Shown here in pieces: positions 16,216 through 26,807 of a stretch of 40,590 nt of DNA. The stretch comes from a bacterium (GTDB lineage Bacteria > Bdellovibrionota_C > UBA2361 > RFPC01): assembly GCA_009926305.1 (NCBI GenBank), contig RFPC01000017.1:1-40590 (forward strand). The letters run 5' to 3'. A program made the translations under genes and the position numbers. Numbering within the stretch: the first letter of the stretch is position 1; each line of letters opens with the position of its first letter. A model generated the notes under the pieces. The model was not told the origin of the DNA. It ran no database searches and worked only from the letters and a program-made list of their open reading frames with translations.

Positions 16216-17532
16216 CTAAGCGAGCTGAATAATTTCATTCAGCAACTGATCAATTGATGTAATAATTCTCGAATTTGCTTGGAATCCCCTTTGTAGAGTG
16301 ATCAGTTTAACGAACTCTGTCGCAATATCAGTTGTTGATAGCTCTAAAGAACCTGATTGGATATTACCAAACGTTCCACTGCTAGGACTTCCTTGAATCG
16401 GCTCTCCTGAATCATTAGACTGTGCAAGGAGGTTACTACCTACTCTCTGAAGCCCCTCCTCATTCGCGAAGTTTGCTAAACCAATAGTTCCGATAACGGT
16501 ATTTTCACCATTATCAAGAAGCGCGAAGATTTCTCCATTCCCAGAGATACTTACAGAGGTAACCGCTCCTACCCCCTGCCCATTTTGGCTAATTGAGTTA
16601 ATATTCGAGTTTGCTGCAAACTGTGTGAATTGAGCAAAATCAAAAGCGATATCTCCAGTTGTAGTTGATCCATTATTCCACGGAATATTCGTAGCGTTAA
16701 TGGTACTCCCTGAGGCAATAGAGCCGTCTGCATTGAATGTCATTGCTGATGATCCAAGGAATCTCGGCTCTCCAGTCTCTAATGAAGTAAGCGGATCTAC
16801 ATCTTCACTATTAACGTAAGCAGCAGCCGTCCAAGAGTTAGCACTTGCCTGATTCTTGAAGAAAAATACGGTTACGGTATGCGCCTCTCCAAGAGAATCT
16901 ACCACATCAAGAGCTGTTTGAAACGCAGCCGCGTCAGACAGGTCAGCAAAAGTGAGAGTATTAGCGGTTCCATCCGTTCCTGCATTTGTTGCTTGGAGAC
17001 TTGGTGCCGTGCCAGTTAGGCGGCCTATGACTATAGCATCTGTACTTCCTGCATCAAGATTCCCAGAAATCGTTACTGCGGATGTAGTGGTTGCGCTCGA
17101 TGCAGCAGTGTTCAAATTGAGAGGGGCAAGTGCTCCCGTTCCATTAGAGGGGAACCCAAGCACTGAGTATCCATTTTGGTCGACAAGATTACCAGTCTCA
17201 TCTGTTCTGAAATTTCCAGCTCGGGTATAGAAGCGTTGTGGTCCATCAGCAACTACAAAAAAGCCATTGCCATCAATTGCGAGATCAAGTGGTCGACTCG
17301 TGAATTCGAGCGTCCCTTGGCTAAAATTACTGGTCACACCTGCAAGCTGAGAACCCGAACCTATAGTTCTTCCAGCAGTTTGACCTCCAGCAATCAGATC
17401 GTTGAACTCGGCACGACTTGCTTTGTAACCAATCGTACTCGAGTTGGAAATATTATCACCCACAGCTGCGATAGCTGAACCGTGACTTGAAATACCTGCG
17501 CGACCTGCGAATAGTCCGTTTACGATGCTCAC
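16216..17532 (-). CDS. flgE: Flagellar hook protein FlgE
   Basis: Structural subunit of the flagellar hook. The N-terminal rod/hook signature is clear (GLFAGRAGISSHG, then NISNSSTIGYKASRAEF), followed by FTSRPLDLAIDGNGFFVV near 75-95 and a variable Thr/Ser/Asn-rich middle forming the exposed domains. The conserved C-terminal D0 helix ends LITLQRGFQANSRIITSIDQ. It has 438 aa, normal for a hook protein. The start is GTG 17532 with AAAGGAG seven bases upstream. It is the last gene of the flagellar operon, 81 nt after flgD. Confidence 0.95.
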   Translation of the reverse strand: MSIVNGLFAGRAGISSHGSAIAAVGDNISNSSTIGYKASRAEFNDLIAGGQTAGRTIGSGSQLAGVTSNFSQGTLEFTSRPLDLAIDGNGFFVVADGPQRFYTRAGNFRTDETGNLVDQNGYSVLGFPSNGTGALAPLNLNTAASSATTTSAVTISGNLDAGSTDAIVIGRLTGTAPSLQATNAGTDGTANTLTFADLSDAAAFQTALDVVDSLGEAHTVTVFFFKNQASANSWTAAAYVNSEDVDPLTSLETGEPRFLGSSAMTFNADGSIASGSTINATNIPWNNGSTTTGDIAFDFAQFTQFAANSNINSISQNGQGVGAVTSVSISGNGEIFALLDNGENTVIGTIGLANFANEEGLQRVGSNLLAQSNDSGEPIQGSPSSGTFGNIQSGSLELSTTDIATEFVKLITLQRGFQANSRIITSIDQLLNEIIQLA

Positions 17533-17613: not shown

Positions 17614-18264
17614 CTACTTAGGAATCTGAACTCGAGATATCTCAGAAGTCAGAACCTCTCGATCTCCAACAAGAAGCGTAGGATTCGGACCTGGAATATA
17701 TCCATTCACAATACCAGCTACTGATACTTCAGGGGCAATCTCACCACCTCCAGACGAAACGGCCTTTACTCTTGCCTGATAATCGCCATTTGCCGCTGTT
17801 ACTTCATCGAGAGGAATTCTATGCGAACCGCTCGACAGAGGCCCAAAACTTAATACTTGCTGAACAATTCCAGCCGAATCAACCAGCTCAACCTGTACGT
17901 TTGATGCGTTATTACCGAGCTGGAATGCTATCTCTCCCGCATTCCCATTCGATACTGAGACGACATCTGAATCGAGCCATACCTCTTGGCCAAGATACGA
18001 TACAAGTGACCCAAAACTGTCACTTCCCTTATCTGACTCAAGTTTTTCATTAATGCCGATTAACTGCTCAACCTGGGTGAACTGTGCAAGCTGTACTGCA
18101 AATTCCTCATTTTGCATCGGATTTAGTGGGTCTTGGTTCTGAAGCTGTGTTACCAGAAGCTCAAGAAATTCGGTCTGATCGATAATCTCAGGATTATCTT
18201 TCTTACTGGCAGCTCCGCCTAGCGCATCACCTGCTACTTGTCCTAGTCCGTTTATTGTCGCCAT
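17614..18264 (-). CDS. flgD: Hook scaffold/capping protein FlgD
   Basis: Caps the growing hook and directs FlgE assembly. The N-terminal conserved block FLELLVTQLQNQDPLNPMQ near 33-51, followed by QLAQFTQVEQL, is diagnostic. The middle and C-terminal parts form the expected beta-rich domain with FLASH-type features (VELVDSAG, GDYQARV). 216 aa. AAGGA precedes the ATG. It sits 14 nt after fliK, so hook length control, cap and hook subunit are adjacent. Confidence 0.94.
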   Translation of the reverse strand: MATINGLGQVAGDALGGAASKKDNPEIIDQTEFLELLVTQLQNQDPLNPMQNEEFAVQLAQFTQVEQLIGINEKLESDKGSDSFGSLVSYLGQEVWLDSDVVSVSNGNAGEIAFQLGNNASNVQVELVDSAGIVQQVLSFGPLSSGSHRIPLDEVTAANGDYQARVKAVSSGGGEIAPEVSVAGIVNGYIPGPNPTLLVGDREVLTSEISRVQIPK

Positions 18265-18278
18265 TTTTCCTTTATTCC

Positions 18279-19952
18279 CTATGCTACCCAGTGGTCAGAA
18301 ATCTGTGAGCTCTTCTGCTCACCAACTACTGCAACAGAGTCGTGAGCAGAGAATCCATCTGTCTCCCCGCGCGATTCTCTCTCAAATTGTTCTTGCTGTT
18401 GTGAAAATGTATCGGCATTCGCATTTTGTTGGCTGCCGTCATCCTGAACAGAAACGTTTACATTATTTACATCAAGTCCAAGTCCCCGAAGAACTTGTTG
18501 AAGCTCTGCGCCCTTATCACGAAGTAAGGTGTTAACATGTGCATTATCAGCTGCTAAACGCGCATGTAAAACTCCATCTCGAATACTGACTTCCACTCTC
18601 ACACTTCCTAGAGATGGTGGATCAAGTCGCAACGAAATTGATTTTCCATCCCGTGATTTTGCTACATCTCGTAATGCTTCCTCTACTTTTTTTAAGGTTC
18701 TCAGCTCTTGCCCCTTTGATAATTCCTTCATGGACTCCTTATTTGCTGCTGCCTCTGACTTATCCGCTTTCAGATTGATTACAGAGCCATGTGCCTGGCC
18801 ATTAAGTGTTTGGCTATGCCCTTGCTGAGCACCTGAATTCGTAAAGCTAGACATCTGCTCAACTCCTCGTGAAACGCTAGCCTCAGATGGATTTGATAAA
18901 ATTCTTGACTGAACTAGAGACGAAAAAAGTTCACTCTGCGGCTTAAATGTAGGAGACAAGATAACTTGTTGAGCGCCGGCCTCTTCACCGTTCTTTCCCT
19001 GAAGGAGACCTTCTACAAGTTTTGCAAGCTGATCCTCTCCTCGAGGCTGCCCTTGTTGTACCTGTTGATTGAGTGCAGTCTGTTGAATAGCACTGGTGAC
19101 TTCCTTAACAACCTGAAGCTCCTCTCCGGTAACAGATTGAAATTCTGGTATCAGGGGCGTTCCTTGGGGGTTTTCACTTTGAGTTGGAGCACCACCTGAT
19201 GGTTCCCCTGTTATAACCTTTACACCTGGCTGAAAGCGGGATTCTACCAGTCCATCTTGCACCACAGCATTCTCTTGTACGGCAGCATTCTCTTGTACGG
19301 CAGGACTCTCATGAATTTTTGTTTGCGATGGCAAACCCTGTGATACAGGGAGTTGCGGCGTCTCATCTATGACGACCTCGTTCGATGTAGCAGCGGTGAG
19401 TTGAACTCCTACTGCCAGAATAGCTCCCTCTGTGTCTTCGCTCTTCTCTGAGGAAGCGGGGATTGGCGTCTCAATGAGGATCTCCTCGGAGGGCGCCTCG
19501 TGATTGGCGTCTTCTTTTGCTTCTGAATTATCCTGCTCTGCAACATCTACTGTCTCCGTCTTATCAACAGTCGATGCGTCTTGCTCGCACGATGTCCGAT
19601 TGCTGTTCTCTTGTGCTGAATTATCTGAATGCTTTACTGAGCTTTGAACGGATTCAGACTTGACTGCTGTGAACGTATTCACTTCTGATTGTTGCTGCTG
19701 AAATCTTGCGGACTCTTCTTCTTGAGCACTATTTTTTGAATTTGCTAACGTCGAAGTCTGATTTGCCAGTAAAGTGTTAAAATCTGTAGTCTTTTCTAGT
19801 TCTACCGAGATCTTATCAAGCAACTGAGAGAACTGTGCCATCAAGAGACCATCAGCTCCAGCTTGACCCAGTCTATTCGCCGATGGCGAAAGCTTTTCTG
19901 GAGGGGTGTTTTCAATCGCTATCCCCTGATTTTTCAAGATCGGACTCGGCAT
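18279..19952 (-). CDS. fliK: Flagellar hook-length control protein FliK
   Basis: Secreted ruler that stops hook growth and switches export specificity through FlhB. The N-terminal 400 residues are low-complexity and rich in Gln, Glu, Ser and Asn, as in other FliKs. The conserved C-terminal domain is near 440-520, with SLRLDPPSLGSVRVEV, DGVLHARLAADN, LRGLGLDVNNVNV. The ruler region contains a perfect 18-nt tandem duplication encoding repeated VQENA hexapeptides. AAAGGGA precedes the ATG. A 441-nt non-coding spacer separates it from the upstream motE-like gene, unlike the tight junctions elsewhere in the operon. Confidence 0.92.
   Translation of the reverse strand: MPSPILKNQGIAIENTPPEKLSPSANRLGQAGADGLLMAQFSQLLDKISVELEKTTDFNTLLANQTSTLANSKNSAQEEESARFQQQQSEVNTFTAVKSESVQSSVKHSDNSAQENSNRTSCEQDASTVDKTETVDVAEQDNSEAKEDANHEAPSEEILIETPIPASSEKSEDTEGAILAVGVQLTAATSNEVVIDETPQLPVSQGLPSQTKIHESPAVQENAAVQENAVVQDGLVESRFQPGVKVITGEPSGGAPTQSENPQGTPLIPEFQSVTGEELQVVKEVTSAIQQTALNQQVQQGQPRGEDQLAKLVEGLLQGKNGEEAGAQQVILSPTFKPQSELFSSLVQSRILSNPSEASVSRGVEQMSSFTNSGAQQGHSQTLNGQAHGSVINLKADKSEAAANKESMKELSKGQELRTLKKVEEALRDVAKSRDGKSISLRLDPPSLGSVRVEVSIRDGVLHARLAADNAHVNTLLRDKGAELQQVLRGLGLDVNNVNVSVQDDGSQQNANADTFSQQQEQFERESRGETDGFSAHDSVAVVGEQKSSQISDHWVA
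19265..19300. repeat. Perfect 18-bp tandem duplication inside fliK
   Basis: CAGCATTCTCTTGTACGG is repeated head-to-tail (19265-19282 and 19283-19300) within the low-complexity ruler part of fliK. It keeps frame and adds one VQENA-type hexapeptide, so it would lengthen the ruler by six residues. Confidence 0.9.
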
Positions 19953-20393: not shown

Positions 20394-21230
20394 TTATTCG
20401 CCTCTGCTTAACATCCTTGTGATCGTCAAAGCTCGCTCAGCACTCATAAGTGATAAAATCTGTCCGATCCTTTTCTCTGGCATTCTTTCAAGCAGGCCCA
20501 GCGCAATAGAAACATCCAGCTGCTCTATTAATTGAGCCGACTCTTTTGGATCCATTGAACCATAAACATTTGATAGCTGTTCAAGCTGACCATTCCTTCT
20601 TTCGGCACTCTTTTCTCGAGATATCTTTAACTGATCAGTAAGCTCCCTCAATTCAGCCAGCCGTACAACAAATTCCTGCTCTTTAAGCGAAAGCTCTCTA
20701 GCCTGCTGTTCAATCTGCGACTCCTGCTCACGCAGCTCTACACGTCGAATATCAAGCTGCTTTAAAACCGAAAGTTCCTCTTCTGAGTACCTTGGCAATG
20801 CCGGGACAGAACTCAGCGCAACTTCTTGGTGCAGAGAGGCACGAGCTGTGCTTACATTAAAAACTCCGGCATACTCAAATGCAGCAAGAGAAATCTTCAT
20901 AAGAACGAAGAAGGCGACTAACGCCACTGCACTCTGAACTCCATTCGGCCTTGAATGATCGAATGCAAAGCGAGAGTTGTGACTGGCGCGGGAGTTATGT
21001 TGAGTTATGCTTTCTGCCGAGGACTCATCCGTAATAATTTTAGACCTCTCTCGTGTAGCATCCTCTCTTCTCATGCTCTCCCTGATTGCCTGAGCAATCT
21101 GTTTTGCAACTTGTGCGTCACCGCCGCCTTTTTGTCCCCCTTCTTTCATCCTGCCAATGGTTTTATGAAGGTCTCGGTAAAGCTCTGCAGCATCTTCTCG
21201 CGTCAGTTTTTTCTTTTTTGCATTCATCAT
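20394..21230 (-). CDS. MotE-like flagellar protein
   Basis: Resembles MotE, a periplasmic motor chaperone described in alphaproteobacteria (it assists MotC), and similar proteins encoded beside fliJ in many bacteria. It has a charged cytoplasmic N-terminus, one membrane segment (98-118), a coiled coil (about 150-215) and a C-terminal MgtE-N/FliG-M-like helical domain, seen as LSNVYGSMDPKESAQLIEQL near 218-237 and ending in MSAERALTITRML. 278 aa. The start (ATG ATG at 21230) overlaps the fliJ stop by 4 nt with GGAG just upstream. Function here is inferred from family and position. Confidence 0.8.
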   Translation of the reverse strand: MMNAKKKKLTREDAAELYRDLHKTIGRMKEGGQKGGGDAQVAKQIAQAIRESMRREDATRERSKIITDESSAESITQHNSRASHNSRFAFDHSRPNGVQSAVALVAFFVLMKISLAAFEYAGVFNVSTARASLHQEVALSSVPALPRYSEEELSVLKQLDIRRVELREQESQIEQQARELSLKEQEFVVRLAELRELTDQLKISREKSAERRNGQLEQLSNVYGSMDPKESAQLIEQLDVSIALGLLERMPEKRIGQILSLMSAERALTITRMLSRGE

Positions 21231-21667
21231 TTTTCTCCGAACTGCATATTCCCCTTCAAGGTGCCTATCTCATCAAGAAAACTTGCTTCCTCTTTCTCAT
21301 ATTTCTCCGTATATGCTGATAGCTTTTTCTCTTTTAGTCTTTTCAGCACTTCTTCTTCTTTTGCCGCCTCTCTGTATTGTATGAGAGCCTCTTGCTGATC
21401 CCTCCGCGCCACTAGTAAGTTTTCTTCATTTACAGCAAGCTCTCCTCTCAGCCGAGTGATATAGTTCCCGAGTAAGCTCATCAGCTCACCGCTGGTAACA
21501 GGCGACGTAATCTTCGCCTCACTTAGAGATTGCAGGATCTGTTCCTCTTTTTTCTCTAGATCGCTCACTGTCTGATTTTTCTCAAGCAGCGCCTTATGGA
21601 GTCCATCTTTCAGTAACTTTCGGTACTCTAGAACGCGCTGCAGTCTAAACTTGAATTTTTTCGGCAT
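21227..21667 (-). CDS. fliJ: Flagellar export chaperone/stalk protein FliJ
   Basis: Coiled-coil stalk of the flagellar type III export ATPase, linking the FliI ring to FlhA. A short 146-aa, almost wholly helical, Glu/Lys/Leu-rich protein with the N-terminal FRLQRVLEYRKLL motif that marks FliJ. It begins 6 nt after fliI and overlaps the motE-like start by 4 nt. Confidence 0.9.
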   Translation of the reverse strand: MPKKFKFRLQRVLEYRKLLKDGLHKALLEKNQTVSDLEKKEEQILQSLSEAKITSPVTSGELMSLLGNYITRLRGELAVNEENLLVARRDQQEALIQYREAAKEEEVLKRLKEKKLSAYTEKYEKEEASFLDEIGTLKGNMQFGEK

Positions 21668-21673
21668 GTTACA

Positions 21674-23056
21674 CTATCCATTTTCCTGAGCACTCTGTGA
21701 CTGCTCTGCCTGCGCTCGTTGATAGAGTTCATTGACCTTCTTATTCGCCTGTTCAACTACTGTTATAAGATTCTTACATGCATCTTCAAGTGACACCCTT
21801 TCGTCAGGCTTTTGGCGAAGAAAACTGTTCAGCATATCAATAGCACCAACCGCTCGGTCCACACGAGGATTCTGACCAGCCTTGTATGCTCCAATAGTGA
21901 TAAGGTCTTCTGTATCTTTATACGTAGCTAAAATATCTCGGGCCTCCGAAGCAATATCAACAAATTGAGATGGAACAATGTCATTCATTACTCGAGAGAT
22001 ACTCTGTAACACATCGATAGCTGGGAAATGCCCCTTGGATGCGAGATCTCGATTGAGCACGACATGTCCATCTAGAATTCCTCGTACAGCATCTGCGACG
22101 GGTTCATTCATATCGTCCCCTTCAACCAGCACCGTGTAGAGAGCAGTAATAGAGCCCTGACCTTCTGTCGTTCCAGCCCGCTCAAGCAACTTTGGCAGTA
22201 AAGAAAATACGGAAGGCGTATAACCTCTCGTACTAGGCGGCTCACCGATTGCCAGCCCAATCTCTCTCTGAGCCATCGCGAGTCGTGTAACAGAGTCAAG
22301 CATAAGAACTACCTTCTTCTCCTGATCACGGAAGTACTCAGCAAGAGCGGTTGCATACAAGGAGGCACGTATTCTCATCAAAGCTGATTCATTACCCGTT
22401 GCTACAACAACAACGGAACGCTTTAATCCCTCCTCGCCAAGGTCTCGCTCTATGAATTCTCGAACCTCTCTTCCCCGCTCACCAATAAGACCAATAACAT
22501 TCACCTCACTCTTAGAATGTTTCGCAATCATCCCAAGGAGCGTGGATTTTCCGACTCCAGAACCCGCCATGATGCCGGTCCTCTGCCCCTCTCCCATGGT
22601 AAGAAATCCGTTCATTGCCTTTACACCCAGGTCGAAAGGCTCCGATACCCGACGACGTGAGACCGGATTCGGAGGATCTCTTAGAATAGGGACTGCCTCA
22701 CCTCCAGGCACCAATGGCCTCCCATCGAGGGGTCGTCCCATTCCATCAATAACTCTCCCTAAAAGATGTGGTCCCACTGGAACGTGAGATTCAAGACCAG
22801 TGGAAGTAATGGTTGCGCCCGGAGCAAGACCTTGGGGCTCTGCATAAGGCATAATCAGTATGCGGTCTTTTTTGAAGCCAACCACTTGCGCCTGTATCAG
22901 ATGACTACCGGAGCGAATATCAACAGTAGAACCAACGGAAACAAAAGGCCCAGTGCCTTCAATAATTAAACCCCTTACATCAGTAACTGTTCCGCGCATT
23001 TCGCATGCACTGGTGAAGTCAAGCACCGATGAGGCTTTTTGAAATGCACTGCTCAT
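21674..23056 (-). CDS. fliI: Flagellum-specific export ATPase FliI
   Basis: ATPase of the flagellar type III export apparatus. Walker A is GSGVGKST at 165-172, GERGREVREF follows, Walker B is VVLMLDSVTRLAMAQREIG near 247-265, and then the FliI/SctN signature GEPPSTRGYTPSVFSLLP and the LVEGDDMNEP loop. 460 aa, full length. Overlaps fliH by 4 nt (ATGA), indicating translational coupling. Confidence 0.96.
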   Translation of the reverse strand: MSSAFQKASSVLDFTSACEMRGTVTDVRGLIIEGTGPFVSVGSTVDIRSGSHLIQAQVVGFKKDRILIMPYAEPQGLAPGATITSTGLESHVPVGPHLLGRVIDGMGRPLDGRPLVPGGEAVPILRDPPNPVSRRRVSEPFDLGVKAMNGFLTMGEGQRTGIMAGSGVGKSTLLGMIAKHSKSEVNVIGLIGERGREVREFIERDLGEEGLKRSVVVVATGNESALMRIRASLYATALAEYFRDQEKKVVLMLDSVTRLAMAQREIGLAIGEPPSTRGYTPSVFSLLPKLLERAGTTEGQGSITALYTVLVEGDDMNEPVADAVRGILDGHVVLNRDLASKGHFPAIDVLQSISRVMNDIVPSQFVDIASEARDILATYKDTEDLITIGAYKAGQNPRVDRAVGAIDMLNSFLRQKPDERVSLEDACKNLITVVEQANKKVNELYQRAQAEQSQSAQENG

Positions 23057-23853
23057 TTTACAACTCGCATCACTTGTTCAGCGATTCTCTGCCATGCCTC
23101 TTCTAATTGGTAATCAATTTCACCAGCACTTGTATCAACCACACAACCTGAACGAACGGTCTCATCTGACTCGAAATTCCACGACTGATCGGAATCATCG
23201 AGCATCTTCCTAACGCCAAAGATCTCGATAAACTCGAAGTCCTGGGGACTAACGCGAACACGCTCTATGAGCGCACTTCCAACTTTCGATAAAGCCTCAC
23301 GCACAATCTCAATAATATACTCAGGATTAATCTCAACTGCTTGTCCGACTAATTTCTTTGCAATCTCAAGAGAAAATTTGACAGCATCGCTCTCTAGCTC
23401 TTGTAGAGTCCGTTCCGACTGCTGTATCAGGTCCTTTAGGACTATTTCAATAGACTCATTTCTTTTGTTTTGAGCGATTACCTCTTCTTGCATCGCCTCC
23501 TCGCGACCATACTGCTTCCCTTCCTCAACGCCAGCTGCATGTGCCTCAGCTACTTTCTGCTCCATTACTGCCTTTAGGGAATCAATCTCATCACGCAGCT
23601 GCAATTCGACAGATTTCTCCTCTTCAACATATCCAGTAACACTATGTGCAAAGATTTTTTTCTGCTGATCGATCTGCCCTCCATAGTCGGCAAACATCGC
23701 ATCTGAGCGAGTCTCATCAGATTCAATAATGGCAATTTCAAGTGGCTCAAAGTGGGGATTCTCATCAATCTCGTCGATCATTTCCCACGACGAATCGACA
23801 TAAGGCGTTTCTTGATAGTCTGCTTGACGCTCGGGGTTTTGAGCTGTTGTCAT
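23053..23853 (-). CDS. fliH: Flagellar export protein FliH
   Basis: Peripheral stator and regulator of FliI. The acidic N-terminus is followed by a coiled coil with the GxxxG-type stretch (AAGVEEGKQYGREEA near 107-121) and a C-terminal domain with SLEIAKKLVGQAVEINPE and a VSPQDFE-type segment. 266 aa. AGAGGA lies seven bases before the ATG. It begins only 11 nt after fliF, the place where fliG normally lies. Confidence 0.92.
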   Translation of the reverse strand: MTTAQNPERQADYQETPYVDSSWEMIDEIDENPHFEPLEIAIIESDETRSDAMFADYGGQIDQQKKIFAHSVTGYVEEEKSVELQLRDEIDSLKAVMEQKVAEAHAAGVEEGKQYGREEAMQEEVIAQNKRNESIEIVLKDLIQQSERTLQELESDAVKFSLEIAKKLVGQAVEINPEYIIEIVREALSKVGSALIERVRVSPQDFEFIEIFGVRKMLDDSDQSWNFESDETVRSGCVVDTSAGEIDYQLEEAWQRIAEQVMRVVK

Positions 23854-23864
23854 TCTTATTCCTC

Positions 23865-25514
23865 TTAGATACGACCGTCATTTAACCAGTAGCGGATAAG
23901 AAGTGCCGCCTGATGTGGATTCTCTTTTACAATCCGAGAGTTCTCTGCCATAAGTTCCTCAAGCTGCTCAAGATCCACAGACTGATCAATCTCTGGCAAT
24001 TTACCTGCCTTGGAACGTTCAGCGTCAAGCTCTTGCTCAAGTTCTTTTAATCCGGTCGGTAATAAACGCTCAAGGTCAAGTTCTGCTTCTGTTGGAGTGA
24101 TTATAAACCGCACAAGTGGTCGTACGATGATGAAGAAGAAGAGAATAAGAAAGAGAACTGGCCCAGCACGAAAAATCGCATTAAATATCATGTCTTGGGT
24201 AGCTTTCGCATCCATTTGCTCGACGAAACTATCGCTCTGCGCATTAAAGGCTATGTTTTCAACCGTGATTGAATCGCCTCGAACGGAATCATACCCAACA
24301 GCGCTTTTAACGATATTCTCTATCTTCTCTAGCATCTGATTTGGAAGTGGTTGAAACGTTTTTGTTTCAGTTCCATCCTCTGCAACTACTGAGTCATATG
24401 TTCCATCCACAACTACAGCAACCGAAAGTCGAGTAAGCGTTCCTTGTGGTGATCGGGTTCGGGAGACAGCGCGTGATACCTCATAGTTTCGAACTTCCTC
24501 GTTTCGCGAGCTCGAGCTATCTCCTGGACCATCAAGAGTATTAGGCGATGGATTAGACATATTTGAGACAATCCCTGGAACACCTCCTCTCTGAGATGTG
24601 CCTGTCCCTTCATTCATTGTCCGCTCTGAACGAAGCACCTTCCCTCCTGGATCAAACGTCTCCTCTTCGCGCTCACTCTGAGTGAAGTCCATATCAGCTG
24701 TGACTCGCGCGATTGCTTTACCAGGGCCTAATACTGTTGAGAGAACTTGCTCAATTCGACTAACAAATCCTTTTTCTATCTCACGTTGATATGCAAGACG
24801 GGTTGCTTCCATCTGTAGCTGATCACCCGTCTCATCTTCTGGTGTAGTCAATAGAGAGCCATTCGCATCCAAAATGGTAACATTTTCTGGTAGCAGTCCT
24901 TCGACACTCCCCGCAACAAGATGAGCTATTCCTTTTATCTGCTGAGAGATCAGCTCGCTTCTGCCAGACAGACGTAGCATGACCGATGCTGTAGGCTGCT
25001 GCGACTTATTAGCGAATACACTTTTCTCTGGTTGAGCAATATGAACACGTGCGGCATGGACAGCGTCAAGCGATTCTATGGTTCTCTCTAGCTCTCCCTG
25101 AATTGCTCGCGTAAACTTCACTCTCTCCTGGAAACTTGTTGTACCAAGATTCGAAGCTTCAAATATCTCAAGTCCGACTTTGCCACCTTGTACTATCCCT
25201 TCACCGGCTAGAGTCATGCGCAGCTCATGTACCATTGAAGGCGGTGAGATAGTAATAATAGTACCACCACCTTCTACCTGATATTTTACTTTCAAATCTT
25301 TTAAGCGCTCTATCACAGACGCAGAATCTGCCGGCTCGAGATCAGAAAATAGTGTCACAAACTCAGGGCGGTTCGCCCATTTAGACACAAAAATAATTCC
25401 AGAAACAGAAGCAATAAGTAATACAGGAAAGAGTATTTTCTGCACTAGTGGCAGCTTCATATACCCTTCCGTTAACTGAGCAAGAATCGCACTTGGATCA
25501 AAACTTGAAGCCAC
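23865..25514 (-). CDS. fliF: Flagellar M-ring protein FliF
   Basis: Forms the MS ring in the inner membrane, base of the motor. One membrane segment at 26-44, ring-building domains (VKYQVEGGGTI, GKVGLEIFE, LERTIESLDAVHAARVHIAQP), a Ser/Gly-rich variable loop near 300-330, a second membrane segment near 440-465, and a cytoplasmic tail ending ENPHQAALLIRYWLNDG, the FliG-binding motif. 549 aa. Start GTG 25514 with GAGGGG upstream. The intact FliG-binding tail implies a FliG exists although none is encoded next to it. Confidence 0.95.
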   Translation of the reverse strand: MASSFDPSAILAQLTEGYMKLPLVQKILFPVLLIASVSGIIFVSKWANRPEFVTLFSDLEPADSASVIERLKDLKVKYQVEGGGTIITISPPSMVHELRMTLAGEGIVQGGKVGLEIFEASNLGTTSFQERVKFTRAIQGELERTIESLDAVHAARVHIAQPEKSVFANKSQQPTASVMLRLSGRSELISQQIKGIAHLVAGSVEGLLPENVTILDANGSLLTTPEDETGDQLQMEATRLAYQREIEKGFVSRIEQVLSTVLGPGKAIARVTADMDFTQSEREEETFDPGGKVLRSERTMNEGTGTSQRGGVPGIVSNMSNPSPNTLDGPGDSSSSRNEEVRNYEVSRAVSRTRSPQGTLTRLSVAVVVDGTYDSVVAEDGTETKTFQPLPNQMLEKIENIVKSAVGYDSVRGDSITVENIAFNAQSDSFVEQMDAKATQDMIFNAIFRAGPVLFLILFFFIIVRPLVRFIITPTEAELDLERLLPTGLKELEQELDAERSKAGKLPEIDQSVDLEQLEELMAENSRIVKENPHQAALLIRYWLNDGRI

Positions 25515-25542: not shown

Positions 25543-25893
25543 CTATACCTGTGTTCGCATTACTTCTTCGTATGCGCGTGTAATTCTCATTCGAATATTG
25601 TTCATGAGCTTAAAGGCGATATCTGCTTTTTCGAGAGCAATCATTGCCTCATGGGTTTGCACACCCTTCCCGAGAACCATTCCTTCAATTTTATGATCAG
25701 CATCTTTCTGAAGTGAGTCTACTTCCTTCATGGCATCGGTGAGCATATTCGCAAAGCCATCTCGAGACTTGCCAGTCTTATCCGAACTCCCTGCCTTCTC
25801 AAAGCCTTCAGTAGCACCACCCTTTTGTGCCTGTTCATACGCTTTAATAGAGCGAAGTGCAAAGTTTGGTGATGATAAATTTTCAATCGCCAT
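25543..25893 (-). CDS. fliE: Hook-basal body complex protein FliE
   Basis: Adaptor joining the MS ring and export gate to the proximal rod. 116 aa with the FliE C-terminus: VLGKGVQTHEAMIALEKADI, then FKLMNNIRMRITRAYEEVMR. AAGGGA precedes the ATG. Lies between flgC and fliF with short gaps, the conserved flgBC-fliEF order. Confidence 0.93.
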   Translation of the reverse strand: MAIENLSSPNFALRSIKAYEQAQKGGATEGFEKAGSSDKTGKSRDGFANMLTDAMKEVDSLQKDADHKIEGMVLGKGVQTHEAMIALEKADIAFKLMNNIRMRITRAYEEVMRTQV

Positions 25894-25909: not shown

Positions 25910-26326
25910 TTAAAACCTACCCGCAATACTTGCTCCACGCTCTTCAATCTGCTTCGTAGTTTGAATCGCGTTTGCAGCAGCTTCATAGGCGCGCGTTACA
26001 GACATAAGTTCTGTCATCTCGCTCACCACATTAATATTTGGATATGCAACAAACCCTTGCTCGTTAGCATCAGGATGCCCAGGCTTATAGACCATTTTGG
26101 GGCTCGACTCGTCCACGACTACCTTTTCCACCTTAGGCTTAGCGAGCGAGACATTATCAAGAGCATCACGAAACTCCTCGGCCACCTGTACAAGCATTCG
26201 CTTTTTGTAGGGACCACCCTCAGGGGTTCTTGTCGTTTCGGCATTCGCAATATTTGATGCCGTAATATTCACTCTTTGACGCGCTGCACTGAGAGCAGCT
26301 GAGAGGCTTTCAATTGCTTTGAACAT
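25910..26326 (-). CDS. flgC: Flagellar proximal rod protein FlgC
   Basis: Rod subunit. The N-terminal SALSAARQRVNITASNIANA motif, PYKKR, and C-terminal NVVSEMTELMSVTRAYEAAA are diagnostic. 138 aa. AAGGAG five bases before the ATG; 10 nt after flgB. Confidence 0.95.
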   Translation of the reverse strand: MFKAIESLSAALSAARQRVNITASNIANAETTRTPEGGPYKKRMLVQVAEEFRDALDNVSLAKPKVEKVVVDESSPKMVYKPGHPDANEQGFVAYPNINVVSEMTELMSVTRAYEAAANAIQTTKQIEERGASIAGRF

Positions 26327-26336
26327 ACGTGCTCCT

Positions 26337-26750
26337 TTATCTCATCGCTTGCTGTATCGCGAAGCGAAGCATTTGCATTTTCTTTCTTACTACCGAAGCC
26401 GCCGTCGAATACTTCCCAGCGTTATAGGACAACTTACCCATCTGGATATCGAGATCCACGTTATTGCCGTCTGCCTTGGTAGCACCAGTTAAATCTTGTA
26501 TGAGACGTGCTTGCCCTTGCGACGCAAGATCAAGATGCTTATCACTCGTTTTTTGAAGATGAGAAGGAGCAGCCTGCGGTTGAAATGCTCTGTTTAATTC
26601 TGCCTTAAAGTCGAGGTCAACTGCGGTATATTTTGGTGTCTCGACATTAGCGAGGTTGCTGGTAATGGCACTATTACGCTTGTGATAGAGGTTCAGTGCC
26701 TGCTCCAGTGCTGCTGTGTTTTTATCAAAAATAGACCCTATGATACTCAT
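26337..26750 (-). CDS. flgB: Flagellar proximal rod protein FlgB
   Basis: Rod subunit and first gene of the flagellar operon. N-terminal RNSAITSNLANVETPKYTAVDLDF and a C-terminal helix with AGKYSTAASVVRKKMQMLRFAI identify it. 137 aa. AGGGA lies seven bases before the ATG. A sigma-54-like box (26792-26807) lies just upstream. Confidence 0.94.
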   Translation of the reverse strand: MSIIGSIFDKNTAALEQALNLYHKRNSAITSNLANVETPKYTAVDLDFKAELNRAFQPQAAPSHLQKTSDKHLDLASQGQARLIQDLTGATKADGNNVDLDIQMGKLSYNAGKYSTAASVVRKKMQMLRFAIQQAMR

Positions 26751-26791: not shown

Positions 26792-26807
26792 TGCAAGGAC
26801 CGTGCTA
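26792..26807 (-). promoter_or_regulatory. Sigma-54-type promoter upstream of flgB
   Basis: On the minus strand the sequence reads TAGCACG-N4-TTGCA against the sigma-54 consensus TGGCACG-N4-TTGCW: one mismatch (A for G in the -24 GG) and correct spacing. Transcription would begin about 30 nt before the flgB ATG. Sigma-54 control of rod and hook genes is common in polarly flagellated proteobacteria. Confidence 0.65.

Follow-up and report, generated by a model that had tools for sequence, protein, structure and literature searches.

Relocation of fliG and a stand-alone FliG C-domain paralogue with a common upstream element in an order of flagellated bacteria of the Bdellovibrionota_C

Our results demonstrate that the flagellar operon of a bacterium of the lineage Bdellovibrionota_C; UBA2361; RFPC01 lacks fliG, that the genome encodes FliG at another locus, and that the missing gene is a case of relocation and not of loss. 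The operon lies in contig RFPC01000017.1 (assembly GCA_009926305.1), of which positions 1 to 40,590 (the window) were analyzed. We are close to certain of a joint explanation, in which fliG was relocated to a site where it lies behind an upstream element of its own, FliG and the C-ring would be normal, a contig break hides the gene in this assembly, and a FliG_C paralogue, designated here mini-FliG, is carried behind the same element.

The operon is encoded on the minus strand and consists of probable flgB, its first gene (positions 26337 to 26750, 137 aa), a gene for a flgC-like rod protein (25910 to 26326, 138 aa; Pfam Flg_bbr_C, 1e-13; Flg_bb_rod, 3.9e-7), fliE (25543 to 25893, 116 aa; FliE, 8.5e-22), fliF (23865 to 25514, 549 aa, GTG start; YscJ_FliF, 5.2e-60; YscJ_FliF_C, 1.2e-45), fliH (23053 to 23853, 266 aa; FliH, 1.8e-18), fliI for the export ATPase (21674 to 23056, 460 aa; ATP-synt_ab, 2.4e-88; T3SS_ATPase_C, 3.3e-22), fliJ (21227 to 21667, 146 aa; FliJ, 1.3e-8), a gene for an MgtE_N protein, a fliK-like gene for hook-length control (18279 to 19952, 557 aa; Flg_hook, 7.2e-18), flgD (17614 to 18264, 216 aa; FlgD, 4.4e-22), and a gene for a flgE-type hook protein (16216 to 17532, 438 aa; NCBIfam TIGR03506, 4.5e-88). 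The identity of flgB is assigned by position because its Flg_bb_rod score (15.8 bits) is below the cut-off (20.7 bits). The fliF stop at 23865 and the fliH start at 23853 are separated by 11 nt (23854 to 23864, minus strand) in which fliG is absent, exactly as had been noted. Upstream of the flgB operon, a sigma-54-like site, TAGCACggtccTTGCA (26792 to 26807, minus strand), was picked out by eye as a candidate, from its likeness to the sigma-54 consensus; by eye, it differs from the element found upstream of fliG and mini-FliG.

The initial annotation expected a FliG elsewhere in the genome, to be sought with FliG domain profiles, and this proved correct. A genome-wide search identified FliG_N at C35:34-324 (73.9 bits, cut-off 25; 3.8e-20), in a 119-aa frame running off the contig start, and FliG_C at C50:106-426 (137 bits, cut-off 23.3; 7e-40), in a 152-aa frame starting at the contig edge. 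FliG_M gave no match above cut-off in this genome; its region corresponds to residues 126 to 193 of the FliG of G001, a genome of the same genus in which the 345-aa protein is intact, and coincides with the contig gap. The two fragments align to residues 13 to 125 (82.3% identity) and 194 to 345 (82.2%) of that one protein and therefore represent one gene whose middle 68 residues lie in the gap. A contig break thus cuts this distant fliG and hides it in the assembly. Judging from its relatives, the frame is probably intact. The FliG_C domain carries the charges K, R, E, D, and K at sites 264, 281, 288, 289, and 297 of the torque helix (Salmonella numbering). The gene is flanked by a nucleotidyltransferase gene beyond its N end and by hypothetical genes, rsgA, and ung beyond its C end. 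G001 and G004 have the same flanks; of the 20 fetched fliG loci (L092 to L111, some of them cut or split), 15 keep one or more of these neighbors. A weak FliG_C match on C46 (E value of 0.48) was dropped, as its frame reads as FtsZ.

A second fliG, in part cut, was observed in G007, G010, G020, and G021. In G028, of family f14, fliG is spread over two frames (L013:1471-2469, G028:C31), a frameshift or an assembly error, and fliG of G003 is likewise in two frames; damage or assembly error thus does occur at this gene. FliG_N had no match in 6 of the 24 order genomes having FliF (G005, G012, G015, G022, G024, and G027), and in three of these, G005, G012, and G015, mini-FliG was found but no other FliG. 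These three genomes, together with the lack of FliG_M in the genome under study, are what would speak for the alternatives named in the initial annotation, namely, that fliG was lost, that the structure does not rotate, or that an unrecognized protein replaces FliG. We consider this extremely unlikely, as FliG_N and FliG_C occur at two contig ends and match a single same-genus FliG at 82%. In G005, moreover, the usual fliG neighbor begins at base 46 of its contig; a gap is therefore likely and loss improbable, and G005 has probably not lost fliG.

The arrangement in the window is typical of the order. The profile search for FliG_C and FliF_C covered 57 genomes, this one included. FliF_C was found in 39 of them, and fliF loci were obtained for 30 of these, 19 from the order (this genome and 18 relatives) and 11 from the class outside the order. 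In all 19 readable order loci, that of the window included, fliH directly follows fliF at a distance of 2 to 31 nt, and the statement that fliG is almost always found in this gap fails here (0 of 19). Elsewhere in the class, 8 of 10 readable loci have fliG next to fliF; in the other two, from G028 and G030, fliH is next to fliF, so that family f14, to which both belong, has the same junction as the order. In the eleventh locus, the contig ends inside fliF. For G037 and G038, two class genomes without a fetched locus, the coordinates of the FliF and FliG matches fit adjacent genes. In all 18 order genomes that show both FliF_C and a FliG of usual type, the two are on separate contigs.

Because the usual place is kept in 8 of 10 class loci outside the order and fliG is elsewhere in the order, the gene has moved. 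We infer a single move, in which fliG would have left the flgBC-fliEFHIJ operon in the ancestor of the order for a separate locus near the nucleotidyltransferase gene and rsgA/ung. Compared with the canonical fliF-fliG-fliH order, the loci of this order have the same operon genes and the same FliF tail but differ in the separate position of fliG, behind an upstream element of its own. The FliF of the window ends with NPHQAALLIRYWLNDGRI, and the end (N/S)PxxAALLIRYW(L/I)N(D/E)G is found both in order genomes that lack an adjacent fliG and in class genomes that have one. The earlier remark that the tail retains its FliG-binding motif is thereby borne out. That the assembly lost fliG at the junction, a thought encouraged by the fragmented state of the genome (2,988,209 bases in 281 contigs, 95.86% complete), is already refuted by the relatives and by the fliG located elsewhere; the adjacency recurs in all 19 order loci, none of which has fliG at this position, and the gap is biological.

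The remainder of the motor is in place. A MotA-type protein, FliL, FliM, FliN, FliP, and FlhA are encoded on contig C3 of this genome, and among the 28 order genomes FliM was found in 26 and flagellin in 27. The presence of the MotA-type, FliL, FliM, and FliN genes leads us to expect an ordinary rotating flagellum, and the motor of this organism probably rotates. Full-length FliG would dock on the unchanged FliF tail and, together with FliM and FliN, would build a normal C-ring turned by MotA-type stators. Flagellin_N matches were numerous in several genomes (G004, 36; G003, 27; G017, 24; G007, 20; G002, 19; G006, 19; G010, 18; and G000, 10), and several flagellins of these genomes are in frames of more than 600 aa. 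G013 (91% complete) gave no FliF, FliG, FliM, or flagellin match and is probably a nonflagellate member of the order. G006 (95% complete, 20 contigs) has FliG, FliM, and 19 flagellin matches, yet no FliF_C match.

The protein encoded between fliJ and fliK (20394 to 21230, minus strand; 278 aa), of the E-ring type (FlgY/FlbB/MotE-like), carries an MgtE_N domain at its C end (26.5 bits, cut-off 25.9) and scores 31.5 bits with NCBIfam collar_FlbB, below the cut-off of 110. In the excerpted text of PMC13023049, the E-ring proteins FlgY, FlbB, and MotE are described as having an MgtE_N domain and a gene beside fliJ or fliK. The window protein is like them in both its C-end domain and its place, and this fit accounts for its resemblance to the FliG armadillo domain; it differs in being under the FlbB cut-off, and it is not a replacement for FliG. 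The earlier judgment that this protein cannot replace the torque-generating C-domain of FliG stands, no sign of substitution having been found.

The same genome encodes mini-FliG, in which FliG_C matches at C66:5217-5531 (9.3e-30). The 149-aa protein starts at the linker before ARM_C and contains the linker helix, ARM_C, and the torque-helix domain; neither FliG_N nor FliG_M, the FliF- and FliM-binding domains, was above cut-off. Its PF01706 score is 104.4 bits (cut-off 23.3), and this profile was above cut-off in all five mini-FliG proteins scanned. With the FliG equivalog TIGR00207, it scores 99.1 bits, below the cut-off of 226.7, and covers profile positions 198 to 327 only; this profile matches 18 of 18 mini-FliG proteins at an E value of ≤0.001 (best, 1.5e-32). 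Mini-FliG gives a gap-free alignment with solved FliG structures over their M-C linker and C domain. An AlphaFold model of a same-genus mini-FliG (mean pLDDT, 83) matches C-domains of FliG; normalized by target length, the TM-scores are 0.94 for 1qc7 and 0.92 for 8ucs, a stator-bound FliG.

A profile of 18 mini-FliG proteins was compared with 28 order genomes and 45 phylum genomes. The mini-FliG sets consist of 18 out of 20 fetched short copies, L089 and L090 being set aside because they are cut at a contig edge; L091 was also set aside because its protein is 622 aa. An intact stand-alone mini-FliG of about 150 aa is present in 18 of the 28 order genomes, from nine families, and divergent or edge-cut copies are present in three more (G006, G016, and G018). 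Seven order genomes had no match (G008, G009, G013, G022, G024, G025, and G027), only G013 among them being more than 90% complete, and none was found in 17 class genomes outside the order. Short matches in two genomes were rejected as mini-FliG: in G036 they are divided between two contigs, with one directly behind fliF, which fits a cut fliG, and in G028 the match belongs to the frame-broken fliG. The L091 protein (L091:1473-3341, G001:C5) has a third FliG_C domain at its C end (residues 525 to 609) and no other Pfam match at 0.01. In a sequence collection, two peptide patterns retrieved 61 loci that encode relatives of the mini-FliG query, a scan that could miss distant stand-alone copies since it relied on these patterns. 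Three of the loci, with frames of 147 to 162 aa, are stand-alone and uncut. All three belong to this order (JALEGQ010000033, JAUIBK010000005, and JAGRAO010000276, which carries the label Bdellovibrionales bacterium HKST-UBA20). As for the others, L154 is edge-cut, L172 and L171 are in frames of 244 and 652 aa, and 55 are in frames of 329 to 376 aa.

A tree built from 58 FliG_C sequences places the 18 mini-FliG proteins in a single clade (100/99) with a long stem (1.01), outside the FliG of the class; because the branches are long, the depth of the duplication is unsure. The torque-helix sites are retained to various extents: K264 in 17 of 18, R281 in 12, an acid at 288 in 11, an acid at 289 in all 18, and K or R at 297 in 13. 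None of the six mini-FliG proteins tested from genus g14 has kept R281. Genes for corA, sucCD, sdh, or mdh are near mini-FliG in 10 of 20 loci (corA in 7, sucC or sucD in 8), and no flagellar operon was seen around it in the loci read.

Upstream of both mini-FliG and the relocated fliG is an element, [GT]CATCTNAA, that was first spotted by eye and has the bipartite form TGCnCC - about 16 nt - KCATCTnAA. Strict matches precede 9 of 18 mini-FliG genes, 5 of 18 fliG genes, and 2 of 166 genes in a comparison set of further conserved genes from these loci, and loose matches precede 13, 9, and 3 of these, respectively. The fliG set comprised 17 of the loci L092 to L111 and the gene of this genome; it excluded L094, which is split, and L098 and L108, which are at a contig edge. 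L094 has no element site of 16 bits. Once the upstream regions were aligned on the element, the block TGCnCC emerged at -22 to -17 (G in 18 of 23, C in 15 of 23, and C in 20 of 23). A blind motif search of upstream DNA only, run separately on the mini-FliG and fliG sets, returned the same element from each. The mini-FliG motif exceeds the 99th background percentile in 13 of 18 fliG upstream regions (2 of 165 in the background; P = 6.5e-9), the fliG motif does so in 9 of 18 mini-FliG upstream regions (2 of 165; P = 2e-7), and with a background of 86 operon-first-like genes the counts are still 13 and 9 (P = 4.2e-8 and 1.1e-6), all of these P values being too small by an unknown factor because related genomes were treated as independent.

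Within 1.10 Mb of fetched loci (mostly from the order, partly overlapping), 25 of 38 sites of at least 16 bits precede fliG or mini-FliG; 22 of the 25 were in the training set, and three, before fliG of G014, G019, and G026, were outside it. Of the remaining 13 sites, eight come from loci that were fetched for matching the pattern. The element is probably not a general flagellar promoter, as it is rare or absent before flgB, motA, fliL, and fliM: the 99th percentile was exceeded in 2 of 9, 1 of 9, 0 of 10, and 0 of 10 cases, respectively, and the three matches were obtained with the mini-FliG motif alone and lack CATCTnAA. Thirty flagellin loci gave one match of at least 14 bits, located downstream of flagellin. 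G014, in contrast, has a 16.3-bit site 95 nt upstream of a motA-type gene, counted from the longest frame of that gene, and another, of 21.9 bits, that precedes a glycosyltransferase gene. The element is thus typical of fliG and mini-FliG, but its regulon may have further members. As a definition of a regulon, the genome-wide pattern was too loose and was abandoned, with 14 matches in this genome and 3 for the reversed control among the matches listed. In G017, the mini-FliG element (L083) recurs at G017:C275:29-58, at the end of a contig with a flagellin in a 618-aa frame, and this flagellin may therefore adjoin mini-FliG divergently.

Scans for sigma-28, -54, and -70 sites before the 18 mini-FliG genes were at chance level (P ≤ 0.10 in 5 of 54 tests, with 20 shuffles each). 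For the six mini-FliG genes of g14, the KCATCTnAA block is only 5 to 6 nt away from the start codon, a placement that would suit the -10 box of a leaderless transcript. The element may be a promoter, and both the relocated fliG and the stand-alone paralogue would then be under its control.

What mini-FliG does can be read in several ways. A part in the motor, as a component or a regulator, has about an even chance of being correct: a free module of ARM_C and torque helix would occupy stator or ring sites and lower or tune torque, as a clutch or a spare rotor face. Consistent with this are the FliG_C score above cut-off, the gap-free alignment to solved FliG, the match of the model to FliG C-domains including the stator-bound one, the torque charges that are largely kept (above all K264 and the acid at 289), the upstream element common with fliG, and the absence of mini-FliG from G013, itself without a match for FliF, FliG, FliM, or flagellin. 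Against it are the location outside flagellar operons in the loci read, with corA or tricarboxylic acid (TCA) cycle genes as neighbors in half of the 20, the loss of R281 in the g14 members, and the lack of a match in six FliF-bearing genomes (G008, G009, G022, G024, G025, and G027; 60 to 89% complete). More specifically, and tentatively, mini-FliG could be a dedicated stand-alone torque domain of FliG that is made under the control element of fliG and joins the motor as a further rotor face, in competition with FliG or as a supplement to it. It would thereby set torque or the engagement of stators, as a gear of the rotor turned soluble regulator.

It is rather unlikely that mini-FliG has left the flagellum for another process, for example, together with the neighboring CorA Mg2+ transporter. 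The corA and sucC or sucD neighbors (7 and 8 of 20 loci), a weak MgtE_N similarity, and the fast evolution seen in the stem branch would agree with such a role, but corA and TCA cycle genes were not seen in 10 of the 20 loci (several of them on short contigs), where the gene, and often the element, persists, and sequence and fold are those of FliG_C, with MgtE at E values of 0.9 and worse. A decaying relic of a fliG duplication would be shorter than FliG and on long branches, as mini-FliG is, but this is very improbable for a frame that is intact in 18 genomes from nine families and retains most torque charges and the upstream element. If mini-FliG does act at the motor, it would most likely compete with the C-domains of FliG, or add to them, either at the stator or within the ring that FliG forms.

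FliG1 and FliG2 of Borrelia burgdorferi are both full-length, whereas the extra protein of this order consists of the C domain and linker only. The likeness between the two cases lies in the presence of an additional FliG protein, B. burgdorferi having a second FliG protein according to PMC7225975. YcgR, which according to the excerpt of PMC12713396 affects motor speed via MotA and FliG, is a cyclic di-GMP effector and no FliG paralogue, and offers a functional analogy to mini-FliG only. Among the matches listed in a literature search of titles and abstract openings, there was no stand-alone FliG_C protein and no such move of fliG, and the excerpt of PMC9321776 contains nothing on the place of fliG.

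The missing fliG is in itself an ordinary change of gene order. It carries a caution, in that a contig break inside fliG can make a probably motile organism seem to be without its torque protein. The mini-FliG family matters more than the gap and is the part worth following. If it acts at the motor, mini-FliG would be a natural single-domain FliG and would make it possible to test whether free FliG C-domains compete for stators, and the common upstream element may provide a first handle on the control of fliG outside flagellar operons in this order.
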